Shown here one piece after another: positions 6,570 through 61,608 of a stretch of 63,847 nucleotides of DNA. How positions within the stretch are numbered: position 1 is the stretch's first letter; the number at the start of each line of letters is the position of its first letter. The translations under genes and the position numbers were made by a program. The notes under the pieces were generated by a model. It was not told the DNA's origin and did not search any database. It saw only the letters and a list, made by a program, of their open reading frames with translations. Source of the DNA: a virus; IMG/VR virus record IMGVR_UViG_3300025131_000031, positions 1 through 63,847 of that record; one strand, written 5' to 3'.

Positions 6570-7994
6570 ATGGTTACGACAACGGAACAAGAAATACTAC
6601 ACAGAGTTAATGAAGCAATAGATGGCAAATTGGTCCTATCTGTCAAAGGTAACAATAACTTAGACAAGATTGAATCGATAGGTGTTGTATCAAATGACAA
6701 GTACTTCATAACCGATACAATACTTGATCAACAAAATTTTATAAATAGTTTACTAAATGCGATTGAGCTTCAGAACTTGAAGCTCTATGTATATGATTTA
6801 AAAGAATTCTTCAAGCTCGCTTTGAATATTCTCGACGATCATGTCAATTTCAATGTAATTAATAACTTTATCGATCTAAAGCTATATTTATATGACAGGT
6901 TTGGCACAAAGGTTTCTCTATTTGATGAATCAATAATGAAGCTCACAGGTCGTGAAATTTCATTCGGACACCTAGAGCATTATAAGTCATTATATTCCTT
7001 TGATTCGTTTCCTTATCAAGTATTGGTTCCTAAAACCCTTACTGATCTAGTTCACTACGAGTTACAAGCATTAGATAAATTAAGAAAAGTATTCAATATA
7101 AAACCAAAGAAGTATTTAACAATGATGCATATGGCATCATATTGTTATGCTCATATAGAAAGAAATGAATTAAAGATATATCTAGATCCTTGCATTGATC
7201 ATTTAGAATATGATGATATAAAGAGATATTTTTCAGACTATAAAGAAGCAGAGGGATATGCTAGATTGAAGTATAATTTAGATCATACCTCTACAACGAG
7301 GTTATCATCATCGTTCCACAGTATAACACCCGATAAATCTCAGATCATAGTTACAGGTAGAGATGATAGAGCATTTTTAAGAATAGATTGGACAGCATTT
7401 GAATTCAAAGTTTTGTGTAATCATTTCGGAATTAAATTTGGAAGTATAAAATATCCAAAAGAAATTCTAACAATGCCAAATGATCCTTACAAATATGTAG
7501 AAAAGGTTATGACATTTAAGCATGTTACAGAAAAATTTACAAGAGATCAAATAAAGAATAATACCATAAAATGGATGTATGGTTCTAAAAACTACAACAG
7601 AAAAATTATAGAGTTATTGAAATCAGCTTTAATAGGTGTAGAAAAAATAGATCAATGGAAGGAAGAGACTATTAAAGCCCTTCAATTCACAAATCGTTTT
7701 GACAAAAAAATTAAATATGAAAGCAAACAAGATTGTGAACGAAGATGTATTAATAATTTAATCCAGAGTGAGGCGGCATATATATCAACAAAACATACAT
7801 GCCAACTCATGTTCCATTTGATACAAGCTAGAGTACCAGCTAAGATTGTTGCAACTAGATATGATGAAATAATTTTAGAGTTTAACATTGACCAAGAGGC
7901 TGAAATGAAAGAGCTTCTAACTAAAGTAATAGGGCAAGAATACAGTTGCAAAATGTCTATAGCTAAGAAATTCTCGGAGCTTAAAGATGATTAA
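6570..7994 (+). CDS. Divergent family-A DNA polymerase-like protein
   Basis: 474 aa. The C-terminal two thirds carry the polymerase A motifs in order. TTRLSSS (242-248) matches the T/S-GRLSS entry motif. Motif A is IDWTAFEFKVL with Asp273. Motif B is R325-DQI-K329-NNTIKWM-Y337-G, which lines up residue for residue with RRAAKTINFGVLYG of Pol I. NNLIQSEAAYIS (about 395-406) matches NxPIQGTAADI, and motif C is YDE (431-433). The N-terminal about 170 residues may be a degenerate exonuclease or a linker. At 474 aa it is shorter than Pol I. It lies between virion genes and the small capsid-peptide genes, not in the replication cluster. Activity is not shown, but all catalytic positions are kept. 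A 28-bp stretch inside it is repeated at 20888. Confidence 0.72.
   Translation: MVTTTEQEILHRVNEAIDGKLVLSVKGNNNLDKIESIGVVSNDKYFITDTILDQQNFINSLLNAIELQNLKLYVYDLKEFFKLALNILDDHVNFNVINNFIDLKLYLYDRFGTKVSLFDESIMKLTGREISFGHLEHYKSLYSFDSFPYQVLVPKTLTDLVHYELQALDKLRKVFNIKPKKYLTMMHMASYCYAHIERNELKIYLDPCIDHLEYDDIKRYFSDYKEAEGYARLKYNLDHTSTTRLSSSFHSITPDKSQIIVTGRDDRAFLRIDWTAFEFKVLCNHFGIKFGSIKYPKEILTMPNDPYKYVEKVMTFKHVTEKFTRDQIKNNTIKWMYGSKNYNRKIIELLKSALIGVEKIDQWKEETIKALQFTNRFDKKIKYESKQDCERRCINNLIQSEAAYISTKHTCQLMFHLIQARVPAKIVATRYDEIILEFNIDQEAEMKELLTKVIGQEYSCKMSIAKKFSELKDD
6918..6945 (+). repeat. 28-bp direct repeat, copy 1 (inside polymerase-like gene)
   Basis: These 28 bases are identical to 20888-20915. Both copies are read in the same frame and encode LFDESIMKL in otherwise unrelated proteins. 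Confidence 0.9.
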
Positions 7995-17752: not shown

Positions 17753-17863
17753 ATGGTTTTATCAAAGATAGCAAAAGGAGATAATATTTTTCATTCTGGC
17801 AGAGGTATACCAAAAAAGTATAACAGGCTTGATGGCTATAAGATAATAAGAGAAGCTAAATGA
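17753..17863 (+). CDS. Very small ORF, 36 aa
   Basis: A 36-codon ORF (MVLSKIAKGDNIFHSG and so on, ending IIREAK) that overlaps the next start codon as ATGA. The overlap supports translation. Basic; no function. It may be the end of a decayed gene. Confidence 0.35.
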   Translation: MVLSKIAKGDNIFHSGRGIPKKYNRLDGYKIIREAK

Positions 17864-18123
17864 ATCAATGGTACCCGAAGTGGGATTCGAACTGTTGTAA
17901 TCCTCAACCTCCTGCAGGATATAGATGGGATTTTTGTACTCAAACAATGGAGCCAGATCCTGATTACATTATAGTTCCAAAGAATGAAGTAGAAATAAAA
18001 GATCCAGATAAATGTACTTGTAACACTAGAAACCTAATGACTTATGGATGTGATTGCGGAGCATTCAAGAATGAACAAGTTCAAATAAGAAAGAAACGTA
18101 AAAGGTATAGGAAATACACATGA
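17860..18123 (+). CDS. Small protein with CxCx9CxCG tag
   Basis: 87 aa. Near the C-terminus it carries the tag CTCNTRNLMTYGCDCG, four cysteines spaced CxCx9CxC, likely one metal site. The tag recurs in the proteins ending at 18518 and 29719 and in a fragment ending at 20132. Here a basic tail (RKKRKRYRKY) follows the tag. The N-terminal codons lie on a 25-bp stretch that is the exact inverse of the tRNA-Leu 3' end at 56142-56166, so this start was built from tRNA-derived sequence. Function unknown. Confidence 0.6.
   Translation: MNQWYPKWDSNCCNPQPPAGYRWDFCTQTMEPDPDYIIVPKNEVEIKDPDKCTCNTRNLMTYGCDCGAFKNEQVQIRKKRKRYRKYT
17868..17892 (-). repeat. 25-bp antisense match to the tRNA-Leu(TAG) 3' end
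   Basis: These 25 bases are the exact reverse complement of 56142-56166, which covers part of the T-arm, the acceptor strand and the encoded CCA of tRNA-Leu(TAG). The match ends inside the T-loop and includes the base after CCA. It may be a captured tRNA end, an old attachment or recombination site, or an antisense element. Confidence 0.85.
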
Positions 18124-18518
18124 GTTTTCATATGGCTATTCCAGATTTTATATCAAGGGTTGTTAAAGATAATCCAAGTGTAGAGGAAAAAACTCTATTC
18201 GATTTGATTATAGATATAGCTAAAAGAATGAAGATAGATGGTTGTCAATTGAATTTTATGGTCGACCGGGATGGATACGTTGCAGCTTGGAATCACAACA
18301 TTTTTCCTAATGTTACCATATATTCATTTAACGTGTTTACAGAAAATTTTATGAAAGAGAATATCTATGATCATCTCAGTCAAGAAGACTTTGGTAGAAT
18401 ATCTATTTCATTCAAACAACATGATAATAAAGATACACTTGTTCCGAGAACCAAGCCTAGTTGTACTTGCAGTACTAAACAATTGATGAGGGAAGGATGT
18501 ATTTGTGGGGCAATCTAA
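18120..18518 (+). CDS. Hypothetical protein with C-terminal CxCx9CxCG tag
   Basis: 132 aa. The body (about 110 residues) is an alpha/beta protein without a recognised motif. The last residues are the tag CTCSTKQLMREGCICGAI. The DNA that encodes REG of the tag also supplies the purine-rich ribosome site (AGGGAAGGA) for the epimerase gene, which begins 14 bases before this stop codon. It overlaps the preceding tag gene by 4 bases. Confidence 0.6.
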   Translation: MSFHMAIPDFISRVVKDNPSVEEKTLFDLIIDIAKRMKIDGCQLNFMVDRDGYVAAWNHNIFPNVTIYSFNVFTENFMKENIYDHLSQEDFGRISISFKQHDNKDTLVPRTKPSCTCSTKQLMREGCICGAI

Positions 18519-20021: not shown

Positions 20022-20132
20022 TCTGATCTTCTCTTTGAAGATAGTAAATTTAATAAGGAGTTGAATTCTTGTGATTGTGAAATCAATCACCTAATGGCCA
20101 ACGGCTGTACTTGTGGAGCAATGGAGGATTAA
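20022..20132 (+). pseudogene. C-terminal fragment carrying a CxCx9CxCG tag
   Basis: A start-less open frame ends in CDCEINHLMANGCTCGAMED, the fourth copy of the cysteine tag. Upstream, a short ORF from an ATG with GGAGG (19983) stops after eight codons, so the gene has lost its 5' part or is frame-disrupted. Its last codons contain ATGGAGGA, which serves as the ribosome site for the Nudix gene at 20133. Confidence 0.5.
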
Positions 20133-20648
20133 ATGTTAAAAACGTTATGTGAAAACGATTGGGTTTCACTATTAGATTTAAATGGTTATGTATACAGTCA
20201 TGAAACAAGATGCAACGGAGTTATTGTAGCCATTTTACCTTATAGAAGAAATGAAAAAGGTCGGCTACAATTTTTGTTAAGAAGAGAGATTACACCTTGT
20301 TGGTCTATGGAATTTGAAGATTCAGCTATAACAGGTGGATTAGAAAAGAATGATTCTATATTTACAGTTCTTAAAGAGCTTCACGAAGAGGCTGGTTATA
20401 AAGCAGAACAAAATGAATTGAAGATTTTAGGAAAATGTAGAGCTTCAAAATCTACTGATACTGAGTATCATTTATATGCGATCAATGTTCAGAATAAAGA
20501 GCAAGGAGCATTAGAAGGTGATGAACTCGATGATGATGCAATAAACAAAGATGCAAGTGTAGTCTGGTCCGATGATGCAGATTCTGTTGACCCATTGGTA
20601 TCTGTAATGTATGTTAGATTAATGAGAATATTGGGAGAAGAACTATGA
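20133..20648 (+). CDS. Nudix hydrolase
   Basis: 171 aa. The Nudix box runs from GGLEKND to KELHEEAGY, keeping the EE pair that binds metal; Arg of the REuxEE core is replaced by Lys, and the Glu after the first Gly run is not well kept. The substrate could be an NDP-sugar, dinucleotide or damaged nucleotide. GGAGG lies 7 bases upstream. It overlaps the next gene by 4 bases. Confidence 0.7.
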   Translation: MLKTLCENDWVSLLDLNGYVYSHETRCNGVIVAILPYRRNEKGRLQFLLRREITPCWSMEFEDSAITGGLEKNDSIFTVLKELHEEAGYKAEQNELKILGKCRASKSTDTEYHLYAINVQNKEQGALEGDELDDDAINKDASVVWSDDADSVDPLVSVMYVRLMRILGEEL

Positions 20649-20932
20649 GTGATCTATATGAATTAGTTAGATTAGAAAATCAAAGGAAACATGCAGTAAA
20701 AATAGAACTGATGCAAAAACATGGGTATAAATATAATTTCAGCACCGATGTTTGGGAAAATGATAGCCCTGAAGCTGTTAGCAGAAGAGATAAGCGAGTA
20801 ACAGGATCATTAATAGAAGCATGTTCTCTAGCTGACTTAAAAAAGATACTCCCAGCATTGAACGATCCATTGAAATATAGTCTTATGCTATTTGATGAAT
20901 CAATAATGAAGCTCATACGAGTTTCAAAATAG
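20645..20932 (+). CDS. Hypothetical protein whose C-terminus is a copied segment
   Basis: 95 aa. Residues 1-80 are unrecognised. The last residues LFDESIMKL are encoded by a 28-bp sequence identical to one in the polymerase-like gene at 6918-6945. This suggests that recombination replaced the original C-terminus. The ATG overlaps the Nudix stop codon. Confidence 0.5.
   Translation: MSDLYELVRLENQRKHAVKIELMQKHGYKYNFSTDVWENDSPEAVSRRDKRVTGSLIEACSLADLKKILPALNDPLKYSLMLFDESIMKLIRVSK
20888..20915 (+). repeat. 28-bp direct repeat, copy 2
   Basis: Identical to 6918-6945 and in the same reading frame. The flanks diverge at once on both sides. Confidence 0.9.
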
Positions 20933-20996: not shown

Positions 20997-21674
20997 ATGA
21001 ATTGTGAAGAATGCGGAAAATCAATAACAGGCAGAGGTAAATCTAATTATTGTCAAAGATGCTTCATGAGAATAGTCAAGCCTGGCAAAAAAGGAGGAGG
21101 TTGGAGCAAAGGATTAACAAAAGATACTGATGATAGAATTAAAAAAATGTCCATAAAAGTATCCGCTGCACTTAAAGGAAAGCCCAAGACAGAAAAGCAT
21201 GCAACAAAATTATCAAAAATTTTCAGGAAAAAATACGCAGGAAAAGGTAATCCTTTTTATGGTAAAAAACATTCAGATGATACTAAAAAAATATTATCTG
21301 AAAAGGCTATACATAGATCAAAAAAAATTAATCCTATATTCAATATTTTAAACAATATTTCGAATTCAGATACTAGTATTGAAGTTGCTGTAGAAAATTT
21401 TTTACAATCGGAAAAAATCGAATACAAGAAACAATATAGAATATATTATAATAAAATAAATTTTAAGATATATGATTTCTATCTACTAAAAGAGAATATT
21501 CTGATAGAAGTTGATGGTGATTTTTGGCATTGTAAATTAGAGAAAAAACCCAAGAATTATAAAGATATAATTGTGAATGATAAATTAAAAAATGATTTAG
21601 CTACAGAGAATGGATATAGATTAGTTAGAATATCTCAAAGCGAGTTAGATAGCGTTTGGAGGATTATAGTATGA
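20997..21674 (+). CDS. Homing-type endonuclease: zinc finger, NUMOD3, Vsr/DUF559-like nuclease
   Basis: 225 aa, the only intact member of a family whose decayed copies lie at 26836, 28092, 30472 and 61440. It has an N-terminal Cys4 finger (CEECGK, then CQRCFMR), a NUMOD3 segment around residue 85 (GKKHSDDTKKILSEKA), and a nuclease core with FKIYDFYLL, IEVDGDFWHC and GYRLVRISQSEL, as in Vsr-like PD-(D/E)xK enzymes. It probably cuts a site in the phage lacking the insertion. Its last codons (TGG AGG) provide GGAGG for the downstream glycosyltransferase. A TATTTATTATAAAT stretch upstream may be its promoter. Confidence 0.78.
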   Translation: MNCEECGKSITGRGKSNYCQRCFMRIVKPGKKGGGWSKGLTKDTDDRIKKMSIKVSAALKGKPKTEKHATKLSKIFRKKYAGKGNPFYGKKHSDDTKKILSEKAIHRSKKINPIFNILNNISNSDTSIEVAVENFLQSEKIEYKKQYRIYYNKINFKIYDFYLLKENILIEVDGDFWHCKLEKKPKNYKDIIVNDKLKNDLATENGYRLVRISQSELDSVWRIIV

Positions 21675-28091: not shown

Positions 28092-28406
28092 ATGATTAAA
28101 AAACATAGGAATGGTTCTTTTAATTCAATGAAAATTCATAATACAAAACCTGAGTTGGCTGTTGAGAGTCAACTTAAGCAAATGAGTGTTAGATTTGAAA
28201 AATAAAAAAGAATTAAGAGTAAGCAATTCGATTTCTATTTGCCAGATTATGATATGTTGATAGAAGTAGATGGTGAATATTGGCATTCTTTACCTAAGGC
28301 TGTGAAGAATGATAAATTTAAAAACAATTTAGCAAAAAATGAGGGATATAAATTGACTAGAATATGGGCTGAAGACGTATATAAAAACTGGCGGATAATA
28401 TGGTAA
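28092..28406 (+). pseudogene. Vsr/DUF559-like endonuclease with one nonsense codon
   Basis: From ATG 28092 the frame reads an N-terminal NTKPELAVESQL motif typical of Vsr/DUF559 proteins, then meets TAA at 28203-28205. After the stop the same frame continues with FDFYLPDYDMLIEVDGEYWH and ends GYKLTRIWAEDVYKNWRIIW. One in-frame stop separates two halves of a nearly complete nuclease, so inactivation looks recent. Its end overlaps the GmhA start, and its TGG CGG codons lie in the ribosome-site position. Confidence 0.7.
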
Positions 28407-29198: not shown

Positions 29199-29719
29199 TG
29201 TATCTAGAATATTCAGGAAGACAAAGTGGTAAGACATATAGAATGTGTCAGCAAATTGTAAATGATTGGCGCTACAAAAATGATGATCAACAGATATTGG
29301 TATGTTTGCCTCATAGAAATATGAAGTATGACATACTTTCAACAATTTCTAAAGTATTAGAAGATCTGGGAATAGATTTCCTCGCTCACTTTGAAGATGT
29401 AAAAGAATCTCTATTATTTTCATATGGCAAGGATTACTGGAGCACTGCTAATAGTAGAGATATATATAGAACTTATTATGATGAATTTGAATCAATGGAT
29501 GAGATTCAATATTTGGAAGATGGTTACTACGTATCATCGATAAGAGAAGATTCTATTCATTCTAAATATTTCAAAAAGCTTAAAGCAATGAATGGTGGGC
29601 AGTGTGCTGACTATACGAAACAGATTGCTCCTCATATAGAACTAAGTGTTCGAACAATCTGCGATTGTACAATTCAAGCTCTAATGCGAGAAGGTTGTCA
29701 ATGTGGAACAATGGATTAA
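29198..29719 (+). CDS. Small P-loop protein with C-terminal CxCx9CxCG tag
   Basis: 173 aa. It starts with a Walker A-like SGRQSGKT (residues 6-13), close to the terminase-type SRQ-x-GKT, followed by ILVCLPHR and a possible acidic Walker B/DE pair in TYYDEFE (about 91-97). No nuclease domain follows, so it is too short for a terminase. The last residues are the tag CDCTIQALMREGCQCG. It may be a nucleotide-dependent switch attached through the tag. It sits between the zinc ribbon and a glycosyltransferase-like gene. Confidence 0.55.
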   Translation: MYLEYSGRQSGKTYRMCQQIVNDWRYKNDDQQILVCLPHRNMKYDILSTISKVLEDLGIDFLAHFEDVKESLLFSYGKDYWSTANSRDIYRTYYDEFESMDEIQYLEDGYYVSSIREDSIHSKYFKKLKAMNGGQCADYTKQIAPHIELSVRTICDCTIQALMREGCQCGTMD

Positions 29720-30471: not shown

Positions 30472-30660
30472 GTGTTTCTCTGTCTTGCTTGTCTATATTG
30501 GCATTGTAAATTAGAAAATAAACCTCATGATCATAAACTACGTATGAAAAATGATCAATACAAAAATACTCTTGCAAGAAATAATGGATTTAATCTAATT
30601 AGAATAACTGAAAAAGAAGAAAATAAACTTATAAAAAAATTGGAATTTTTAAATGGCTGA
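30472..30660 (+). pseudogene. C-terminal fragment of a Vsr-like endonuclease
   Basis: The frame keeps YWHCKLENKPHDH and NTLARNNGFNLIRITEKEEN, matching the catalytic-to-C-terminal part of the intact enzyme at 20997 (FWHCKLEKKPKNY). The first two thirds are gone. It ends inside the start of the next gene. Confidence 0.6.
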
Positions 30661-46258: not shown

Positions 46259-47419
46259 ATGGCAAAGAGAAAAACAGTGATTTCGGAAGAGTTTGATGAT
46301 ACTTCTTCCAATTCATCACCAAATACTCTCAATGACATATTAATAGACGAATTAAAATCTGAAATAGGGGGCTCAGCCTATGTCTTAGGCGAAGATGATA
46401 CTCCAGCTGATGTAACGGAGTGGCTCTCAACAGGAAGTACTATTTTAGATATGGTAATTTCGAATAATCCAACTGGAAATGGAGGTATTCCGGTTGGTCG
46501 GTTAACAGAAATTCATGGAGATCCAAGTACAGGAAAATCATTATTAGCTTATATGATCCTAAAAGATTGTGCAGCTAAAGGCGGAATATCAGTATTGATT
46601 GATACTGAAAATGCTGCCAATATAGAATTTTTGAATATGTTAGGTTTAGATCCAAGAAAAAATCTTACATATGTGCAGGTTGATACTGTTGAGGATGTAT
46701 TTGCAACAATAGAAACCGTAATCAGATCAGTTCGAAAGAATGATAGAAAGAAACTTGTAACAATAGTTTGGGATTCAATAGCTGGAACATCCACTCGTAA
46801 GGAAATGGAAGAAGAGGTGGGCAACCAGCAAGTAGCTATGGTTCCAAGATTATTAGGACAAGGATGTAGAAAAGTATCAAGGCTAATAGGTGATCAAAGA
46901 ATAGCTCTAGTATTTTTGAATCAGTTAAGAGCAAAAATCGGAGTAGTATTTGGTGATCCTATGACAACTCCAGGTGGAAATGCAGTTCCTTTCTTTGCTG
47001 ATGTTAGAGTAAGATTGAGAACGGCTGGTAAGATAAAAGCTGGAGCAAAGGATATTATTGGAGTAAGTTCAAAAGCACAGATCATTAAGAATAGATTTGG
47101 CCCTCCATATAGAGAAGCTATACTGAATATCTACTTTGATAAGGGATTAATTGATGAAGATTCTTGGTTTGATTTCCTAAAGGCTAAAAAGCTGATTAAG
47201 AAACTAACTGTTCAGAAATCACAATTAACATTAGATGGAGAAACATTTGAATTCAAGAACAAAGAGTTCATGAAATTAATGAGAAGTCAAACTGAAGAGT
47301 TCAGGAATAAGATCAAGCAAATGATAAAAGATGATCTTTATATAGAACAGGATCCAGATAAGAGAGAGGATGAAATTACGATCGAAGAAGTACCAGAAGA
47401 AGAATTACTAGGAACGTAA
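46259..47419 (+). CDS. uvsX: UvsX/RecA-like recombinase
   Basis: 386 aa (T4 UvsX 391). Walker A is GDPSTGKS (87-94), the Glu/Walker B region includes VSVLIDTENA and TIVWDSIAGT, and MTTPGGNAVPFFADVRVRL is the characteristic UvsX/RecA segment. Its C-terminus is acidic. It catalyses strand exchange in recombination-dependent replication with gp32. It starts immediately after the SSB stop codon. Confidence 0.93.
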   Translation: MAKRKTVISEEFDDTSSNSSPNTLNDILIDELKSEIGGSAYVLGEDDTPADVTEWLSTGSTILDMVISNNPTGNGGIPVGRLTEIHGDPSTGKSLLAYMILKDCAAKGGISVLIDTENAANIEFLNMLGLDPRKNLTYVQVDTVEDVFATIETVIRSVRKNDRKKLVTIVWDSIAGTSTRKEMEEEVGNQQVAMVPRLLGQGCRKVSRLIGDQRIALVFLNQLRAKIGVVFGDPMTTPGGNAVPFFADVRVRLRTAGKIKAGAKDIIGVSSKAQIIKNRFGPPYREAILNIYFDKGLIDEDSWFDFLKAKKLIKKLTVQKSQLTLDGETFEFKNKEFMKLMRSQTEEFRNKIKQMIKDDLYIEQDPDKREDEITIEEVPEEELLGT

Positions 47420-47945: not shown

Positions 47946-47969
47946 TAGCATAAAAAGTTTATTTTTTTT

Positions 47970-48007
47970 GGTTTTATGTTTCATATCGCCTCTAGATTTG
48001 TTATATT
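47970..48007 (+). promoter_or_regulatory. Promoter repeat P1
   Basis: GGTTTTA, then TTTCAT (47979-47984), 17 bases and TATATT (48002-48007). One of four copies with identical internal spacing (P2 50521, P3 52791, P4 56618). It reads like a host sigma-70 early promoter; it drives the gene at 48057 and the first tRNAs. Confidence 0.7.
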
Positions 48008-48056
48008 ATACATGTTACAAAGGTTATGCGTTGTTAATCAAATCAGGGAGAAAAGA

Positions 48057-48939: not shown

Positions 48940-49009
48940 GGGCCGGTATCTCAACGGAGAGCACTTGTTTTGCACTCAGGTAGATAGGGTTCAAGTCTCT
49001 CCCCGACCA
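48940..49009 (+). tRNA. Degenerate tRNA-Ala-like (TGC)
   Basis: D-stem TCTC, anticodon loop TTTGCAC and T-loop TTCAAGT are present. The acceptor has two mismatches in either register and lacks the G3-T70 pair, the anticodon stem has a T-T mismatch, and CCA is not clearly encoded. Possibly a decaying duplicate of the preceding tRNA. Confidence 0.5.
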
Positions 49010-50345: not shown

Positions 50346-50516
50346 GTGAACCGCAGCAAAAGTCGTGATATGGAAGAAGAAGATTTCAAGTTAACTCGTT
50401 CGGAAAGAAAGAATGAAAACAGAAGAGATCGAAGATCGTCGAAAAACATCGAATTCGAGGATGATGAAGATGATAAGGAATATCACGAAATAATGAGGCA
50501 AAAAAGATTGAAATAA
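50346..50516 (+). CDS. Small highly charged protein, 56 aa
   Basis: 56 aa from a GTG with CAGGAG upstream. Strongly basic and acidic blocks (RSERKNENRRDRRSS, EFEDDEDDKEY). Unrecognised. Confidence 0.5.
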   Translation: MNRSKSRDMEEEDFKLTRSERKNENRRDRRSSKNIEFEDDEDDKEYHEIMRQKRLK

Positions 50517-50520
50517 AATT

Positions 50521-50558
50521 GGTTTTATGTTTACTATCGGTCTCAGATTTGTTATATT
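50521..50558 (+). promoter_or_regulatory. Promoter repeat P2
   Basis: GGTTTTA, TTTACT (50530-50535), 17 bases, TATATT (50553-50558). It lies 28 bases upstream of tRNA-Tyr. Confidence 0.72.
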
Positions 50559-50586
50559 ATATACACAATCATTAATAGGAACATAT

Positions 50587-52731: not shown

Positions 52732-52790
52732 CTTTAATGAACTACACAATATAAAGATTGAAAAACTTTGGGTCACCCTAGTTTTATTTT

Positions 52791-52828
52791 GGTTTTAGGT
52801 TTACAATCGCCTCTAGATTGATTATATT
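52791..52828 (+). promoter_or_regulatory. Promoter repeat P3
   Basis: GGTTTTA, TTTACA (52800-52805), 17 bases, TATATT (52823-52828). It drives the gene at 52873. Confidence 0.75.
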
Positions 52829-52872
52829 TATATACAGAATATAATTAAATGGTTTTAGACTAAGGAGATAGA

Positions 52873-55691: not shown

Positions 55692-56090
55692 ATGGATGAT
55701 TATTATTATGTAACATTCAGAGAAACAAAAGATAAATCTAAAAGAATGAAAGCAATTAGCACTATTTGGGTTTATATGGAAACACCAGATAGATTAGTTC
55801 CAGACAATGAGCCTGAAAGTTTCAAAAATAGAGTAATCAGAGAATTAGAAGATTGGGGCTATGAGGAACCAGAAGTTATTCAATGCAAGAGTGTAATAAG
55901 CGTTGATGATCCTGAAGCTCTTTGCGAATTAATCGATGATGAATTAGAAAATGGAAATCAACATAGATTGGTAGGATCAGCAAATCAATTTTTAGATGCT
56001 GCAAGAAAATGTCATGTTGATGAAAATCACTTACCAATATTTATGAGAACAGTTAGAGATATTTTGACACCAAATATTATGCCCGAGTAG
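55692..56090 (+). CDS. Hypothetical protein overlapping tRNA-Leu
   Basis: 132 aa, alpha/beta with an acidic middle. Unrecognised. Its last codons and stop (ATG CCC GAG TAG) run 10 bases into tRNA-Leu(TAG). Confidence 0.55.
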   Translation: MDDYYYVTFRETKDKSKRMKAISTIWVYMETPDRLVPDNEPESFKNRVIRELEDWGYEEPEVIQCKSVISVDDPEALCELIDDELENGNQHRLVGSANQFLDAARKCHVDENHLPIFMRTVRDILTPNIMPE

Positions 56091-56165
56091 GCGAACGGCT
56101 TAGCCGACGGTCTTAGACACCGTGTCCTTTGGACAATGTGGGTTCGAATCCCACTTCGGGTACCA
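56081..56165 (+). tRNA. tRNA-Leu (TAG)
   Basis: Acceptor GCCCGAG/TTCGGGT, anticodon loop CTTAGAC, class II variable arm, T-arm GTGGG-TTCGAAT-CCCAC, A73, CCA encoded. Its last 24 bases plus one recur in inverse at 17868-17892. Confidence 0.9.
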
Positions 56166-56210
56166 TTTTTCCTTGAATTATATTTATTATAAACAAGGAG
56201 AGCTATAAGG

Positions 56211-56612
56211 ATGAACACAGAGTTTAAGTGGTTTTATTCAATACTTACAATTACAACAGTTTGGTTGATAATCACTTTAACGCAATGTGCAGCACCAAAA
56301 CTAAATTCTAATTTTCAAGGAACTTGGTTTCATGAAGGTCTTATAACAAATGATCAGTTTGAAATCAAGAATCGTAGTCGTTTCGAAAGAATATCTGAAA
56401 TAAGATCATCGGGTGAATTTACGCGATGGTTTGGAAAATACGAATTAGATGAAGATGAACGAAGTGTTATATTTTCCAAGCACGGAGTGATTTTCAAGAA
56501 TCGAGTGATCAACTTTCTAAAGACACAGAAGATTGCGATTCCAATGTTATTCTATCAAATTAGTGAAGATTCAGTAATGCTTGATAATATTTTATACATT
56601 AGAACAGATTAA
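56211..56612 (+). CDS. Putative lipoprotein
   Basis: 133 aa. A signal sequence (FKWFYSILTITTVWLIITL) ends in a lipobox-like LTQC at about residue 26. The rest is a small beta-rich domain (FQGTWFHEG..., EISEIRSSGEF). Same plan as the lipoprotein at 44889, where a GDW..EF start also follows the lipobox; both may be envelope proteins that alter superinfection. Confidence 0.52.
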   Translation: MNTEFKWFYSILTITTVWLIITLTQCAAPKLNSNFQGTWFHEGLITNDQFEIKNRSRFERISEIRSSGEFTRWFGKYELDEDERSVIFSKHGVIFKNRVINFLKTQKIAIPMLFYQISEDSVMLDNILYIRTD

Positions 56613-56617
56613 TTTTG

Positions 56618-56655
56618 GTTTTAGGTCTACAATCGTCACTAGATTTGTTATATTA
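56618..56655 (+). promoter_or_regulatory. Promoter repeat P4
   Basis: GGTTTTA, TCTACA (56627-56632), 17 bases, TATATT (56650-56655). It drives the gene at 56686 and tRNA-Pro. Confidence 0.72.
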
Positions 56656-56685
56656 TAACAGTACAATAACTTAAGAGGTTTTAAT

Positions 56686-58376: not shown

Positions 58377-58455
58377 GGACCGGAAGCCTAAACTTGGTAT
58401 AGACGCCATCCCGATAAGGTGGAGACAGTAGGTTCAAATCCTACCCGGTCTACCA
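58377..58455 (+). tRNA. tRNA-Ile (GAT)
   Basis: Acceptor GGACCGG/CCGGTCT, anticodon stem CCATC/GGTGG with loop CCGATAA, T-loop TTCAAAT, A73, CCA encoded. Positions 8-9 are AA. Confidence 0.82.
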
Positions 58456-61439: not shown

Positions 61440-61608
61440 TTTAAATTTCCTATAGATATATTCTTATAGAAGTTGATGGAAGATATTGGCATTCTAGAAA
61501 AGATCATATTGAAAATGATGTATACAAAAATGAATTGGCAAATAGAAAAGGCTACAGATTAATTAGAATTTGGGAAGATGAAATAGATAAAGAATGGAGA
61601 ATAATGTG
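61440..61608 (+). pseudogene. C-terminal fragment of a Vsr-like endonuclease
   Basis: Frame keeps ILIEVDGRYWHSRKDHI and GYRLIRIWEDEIDKEWRIM. The 5' two thirds are missing. Its TGG AGA ATA ATG codons supply GGAG for the exonuclease gene, whose GTG overlaps the fragment's stop codon. Confidence 0.62.

Follow-up and report, generated by a model that had tools for sequence, protein, structure and literature searches.

Analysis of a stretch of viral DNA of 63,847 nucleotides (IMG/VR record IMGVR_UViG_3300025131_000031, here referred to as the window) revealed that 26 bp from the 3' end of a tRNA-Leu(UAG) gene are present a second time, in inverted orientation and without a single mismatch, near the start of a small gene located 38 kb away. 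This inverted copy is real, well-defined and unusual. We consider it probable that a fairly recent event of short-patch ectopic copying has placed these 26 bp, taken from the tRNA-Leu gene of the phage itself, into the start of the small gene. The features discussed are compiled in Table 1.

Table 1. Position of the tRNA-derived copy, its donor and further features within the window
Feature	Position	Strand	Remarks
Antisense copy of the tRNA-Leu(UAG) 3' end, 26 bp	17867..17892	+	end of codon 3 and WYPKWDSN (codons 4-11)
Donor of the copy, from the T-loop to two bases beyond the CCA (GTTCGAATCCCACTTCGGGTACCATT)	56142..56167	+	exact match
tRNA-Leu, anticodon TAG, CCA encoded, intact	56081..56165	+	ARAGORN, Rfam; cloverleaf fold with all arms
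ORF receiving the copy (87 aa), with the Cys motif CxC(n)LMxxGCxCG at the C-terminus	17860..18123	+	ATGA-type overlaps with both neighbouring ORFs
36-aa ORF upstream	17753..17863	+	TGA overlaps the ATG at 17860
28-bp patch near the 3' end of ORF 20645-20932	20888..20915	+	exact direct repeat
Other copy of the 28-bp repeat, in frame in ORF 6570-7994	6918..6945	+	exact direct repeat
UvsX-like recombinase	46259..47419	+	phrog_97, E 2e-67

The copy, with the sequence AATGGTACCCGAAGTGGGATTCGAAC, showed exact inverse identity (100%) to the donor stretch over the whole length of 26 bp. An earlier note on this DNA had described positions 17868-17892 as the exact reverse complement of positions 56142-56166 (25 bp); our analysis confirmed this match and found its length slightly understated. 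The matched part of the tRNA begins at the final base of the 5' strand of the T-stem, continues through the T-loop, the 3' strand of the T-stem, the 3' strand of the acceptor stem and the CCA and ends two bases beyond it. The copy had also been placed at a gene start. It is indeed located near the start of ORF 17860-18123, but it covers codons 3-11 inside the gene and does not lie on the ATG.

This 26-mer is expected approximately 1e-11 to 1e-12 times per strand, calculated from the base or the dinucleotide composition. When the window was shuffled 100 times with a first-order Markov model, inverted repeats reached at most 21 bp (26 bp observed) and direct repeats at most 19 bp (28 bp observed). 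Both flanks of the copy were unlike the surroundings of the tRNA. Flank alignments were no better than shuffled ones, and the identity ended abruptly. Sister contigs of the same phage species, approximately 99.8-99.9% identical to the window, carried the copy (3300022227_000014) and the tRNA (3300022227_000034 and 3300025112_000054; L005 and L006) in the same context. Since each half was found in independent assemblies of this species, an assembly artefact or a chimeric contig is very unlikely.

The product of the recipient ORF starts with MNQWYPKWDSN. The ATGA-type overlaps with the 36-aa ORF before it and with the next ORF, starting at position 18120, support position 17860 as the start codon. 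Codon adaptation of the patch was 0.33 in comparison to 0.76 for the remainder of the ORF, where codon usage is ordinary for this phage, and values as low as that of the patch occurred in only 0.4% of the 8-codon windows. Given the encoded amino acids, the codon choice of the patch had a probability of P = 6.5e-5, with the rare codons CCG and TCG being used. These data bear directly on the reading that the patch is ordinary coding sequence which resembles an antisense tRNA by chance or due to constraint at the protein level. The stretch is in frame within a plausible gene, and DSN-like peptides are a frequent reading of antisense T-arms. Nevertheless, the minute expected count given above and the improbable codon choice for these eight residues leave this reading with next to no weight. 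Because the tRNA folds into an intact cloverleaf and the patch is an outlier within its gene by codon usage and composition, the tRNA is regarded as the donor and the ORF as the recipient. The direction of copying from the tRNA to the gene is well supported.

Searches with peptide patterns, tblastn and two degenerate core patterns found no homologues of the 87-aa protein outside the species. Three candidates (L009, L137 and L138) turned out to be chance pattern matches in unrelated proteins. For the neighbouring epimerase gene, the homologues in viral contigs came from the same species only. A relative lacking the patch was not found, and the comparison covered near-identical genomes of one species. 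The Cys-rich C-terminal motif of the recipient ORF was present in a total of four small ORF ends (18015-18071, 18459-18515, 20055-20129 and 29624-29713), and a similar tail occurs in the huge phage LR756511. This tail looks like a movable and zinc-binding element.

To which genome the donor belongs can be narrowed down by the occurrence of the tRNA 3' end elsewhere. The 24-mer including the CCA had 0 matches in 84,980 bacterial and archaeal species genomes, a search that would miss unsampled hosts or hosts not encoding the CCA, and the 23-mer was absent from every other IMG/VR contig. Based on both results the phage's own tRNA is most likely the source of the patch. Three Pseudomonas phages possess a tRNA-Leu with a 3' end matching at 23/24 positions. 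A match to an ORF of Atu_ph07 (84% at E = 4) was not tRNA-like and was discarded.

The structure shows what characterizes an ectopic copy: an exact match that is longer than expected by chance, ends abruptly and is flanked by unrelated sequence, an identifiable donor (the intact tRNA) and an identifiable recipient (the gene with the outlier patch). The copying would have proceeded by a template switch of the polymerase or by capture of a short single-stranded fragment, either during recombination-dependent replication or in the course of break repair. The copied 26 bp, whether inserted or replacing older sequence, would have supplied codons 4-11 (WYPKWDSN) of the present N-terminus, and the patch would have persisted because the reading frame stayed open. 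Its length is not a multiple of three. A gene for SSB is present in the window besides the UvsX-like recombinase, which suggests that the phage uses recombination-dependent replication and could make such copies. The match extends 2 bp past the CCA, and this weakly favours DNA over mature tRNA as the donor; the chance of both bases matching is approximately 0.14 according to the base composition.

It is established that multi-base changes in coding DNA can arise when a template switch occurs between inverted sequences, and that several adjacent amino acids can thereby be altered at once (PMC8604942). The template-switch mutations described there, by which the arms of inverted repeats are homogenised, share with our case the short, exact and inverted copy, made in one step in coding DNA, and the change of adjacent amino acids. 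They differ in that here the arms are not neighbours but lie 38 kb apart, the donor is a tRNA gene, the tract comprises 26 bp and the sequence before the event is not seen. This distance on one molecule is far and speaks against the copying, but the template could have come from a concatemer or from another phage genome. Known template switches are mostly short-range. We infer the mechanism, the age and the near-neutrality of the event from the features described. The patch is probably close to neutral, and most likely it represents a neutral scar of a known mutation class and not a system. It would be a clean directional case of a phage N-terminus rewritten in one step by a non-coding fragment from the same genome. 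Should such patches be general, their share in the origin of new protein ends of phages would be under-counted.

Besides the 26-bp pair, only one dispersed exact repeat of at least 24 bp was found in the window, the direct repeat of 28 bp listed in Table 1. It encodes LFDESIMKL in frame in both ORFs, whereas the flanks are unrelated. The copy at position 20888 is located approximately five codons before the end of its small ORF. No phage homologue that would point to the donor was found for either protein. Each patch involves a small ORF located between 17.8 and 21 kb, where the two are 3 kb apart. As this second patch is not derived from a tRNA, short ectopic copying is not confined to tRNAs here. 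In the same part of the window, 12 of the 16 differences to the sister contig 3300022227_000014 (L003/L004; here L004) clustered at positions 20450-20570, all but one being synonymous. This cluster was likely imported by local recombination, and the gene is likely under constraint at the protein level.

For comparison, we analyzed seven tRNA-rich phages (T5, KVP40, Aeh1, S-CRM01, CcrColossus, Milchi and Atu_ph07) with 198 tRNAs in 1.72 Mb. The longest tRNA-derived match outside the called tRNAs was 20 nt, and most of the longest stray matches were motifs of D- or T-arms such as missed tRNAs would give. An antisense match in CcrColossus corresponded to an annotated tRNA-Gln. None of the seven carried a long antisense tRNA 3' end reaching the CCA. 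Additional viral loci (0.2 Mb, 158 tRNAs) contained just T-arm motifs on the same strand and one local 16-bp repeat. With nothing comparable in either set, the copy is rare among such phages.

The earlier note had taken the patch as a possible record of a mobile element or of reverse transcription. Part of this interpretation stands, as the codon choice supports a genuine tRNA-derived copy and no gene family sharing the match was found, while the reading as a mobile element gained no support. As tRNA 3' ends commonly serve as att sites, an integrase recognising this 3' end might have inserted or excised an element and left the copy behind. The integrase search proposed earlier gave no result: neither a tyrosine recombinase domain (Phage_integrase, PF00589) nor a serine recombinase domain (Resolvase, PF00239) was present in the window or the three sister contigs, all of which are incomplete genomes. 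Additionally, the copy is isolated within an ORF that is joined to both neighbours by ATGA-type overlaps, the genes and the tRNA cluster are all collinear on one strand, and the missing 24-mer in the species genomes leaves no host tRNA known as a target. As at the att sites of tyrosine integrases, a tRNA gene has its 3' end duplicated, but here the copy is inverted and lies within an operon-like run of genes, no integrase and no element in between were found and the identity ends sharply 2 bp beyond the CCA. We therefore regard an attachment-site relic as highly improbable. An inversion of 38 kb via the inverted repeat was rejected, since the orientation of genes and tRNAs is uniform and the sister contigs are collinear; a replication origin at the site was rejected as well, with the GC skew being unchanged there. 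Reverse transcription of the tRNA-Leu, or of a 3' fragment of it, followed by insertion of the cDNA is a very unlikely but somewhat better candidate. The span from the T-loop to the CCA corresponds in size to a 3' tRNA fragment, the copy begins with TGG like a primer-binding site and host retrons could supply the reverse transcriptase. On the other hand, the window contains no RVT_1 domain according to a domain search, the site is without long flanking repeats and the two matched bases beyond the CCA, which are absent from the mature tRNA, weakly disfavour this route. Retroviral and LTR primer-binding sites likewise are complementary to a tRNA 3' end and start with TGG; in view of the phage context without LTRs and without a reverse transcriptase in the window this is a resemblance only.

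The copy may also have been kept for a function. The mRNA of ORF 17860-18123 could base-pair through its start region with the tRNA-Leu(UAG) or its precursor. Either the tRNA would then block translation, or the tRNA itself would be removed or shielded by the mRNA. The complementarity is perfect over 26 nt across the translation start region, and the copy is unmutated. The predicted energy of the co-fold was -77.1 kcal/mol compared to -31.6 plus -14.5 kcal/mol for the parts, a predicted net gain of approximately 31 kcal/mol even after opening both partners, so that antisense control, be it of the tRNA or of the mRNA, is thermodynamically possible. However, the tRNA must unfold to pair, exactness is equally expected of a recent copy and the near-identical genomes of one species include no diverged relative in which the pairing could be seen as conserved. 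Furthermore, the second ectopic patch has no such role, and the seven tRNA-rich phages contain nothing similar. Taken together, a functional antisense is unlikely, even if it is the least unlikely of the alternatives considered here. If the pairing were functional, this would be a case of a tRNA acting as trans riboregulator. In its specific form, with the tRNA-Leu(UAG) or its unprocessed precursor pairing 26 nt with the 17860 mRNA start and translation of the operon segment being switched during infection according to how the tRNA is supplied, damaged or processed, this model is very unlikely. Given the existence of the second, non-tRNA patch, a mutational origin by short-patch ectopic copying is sufficient to explain the match.

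Further features were noted in the window. Two more tRNA-like genes above the Rfam threshold, at positions 58377-58452 and 48940-49009, were missed by ARAGORN. The gene at 58377-58452 appears to have a C at position 33 and the anticodon GAT. No tRNA-Phe was called in the window. Within the tRNA region an intergenic element (GGTTTTAGGTTTACAATCG...AGATTTGTTATATTATA) was repeated at positions 47961-48038, 50514-50561, 52782-52859 and 56608-56685, perhaps representing a family of phage promoters. Related endonuclease-like C-terminal pieces (ILIEVDGDFWHCK...LVRI) were present at positions 21496-21563, 28252-28297, 30485-30537 and 61458-61503, some of them with stops. These are putative remnants of a homing-type endonuclease family that has spread.
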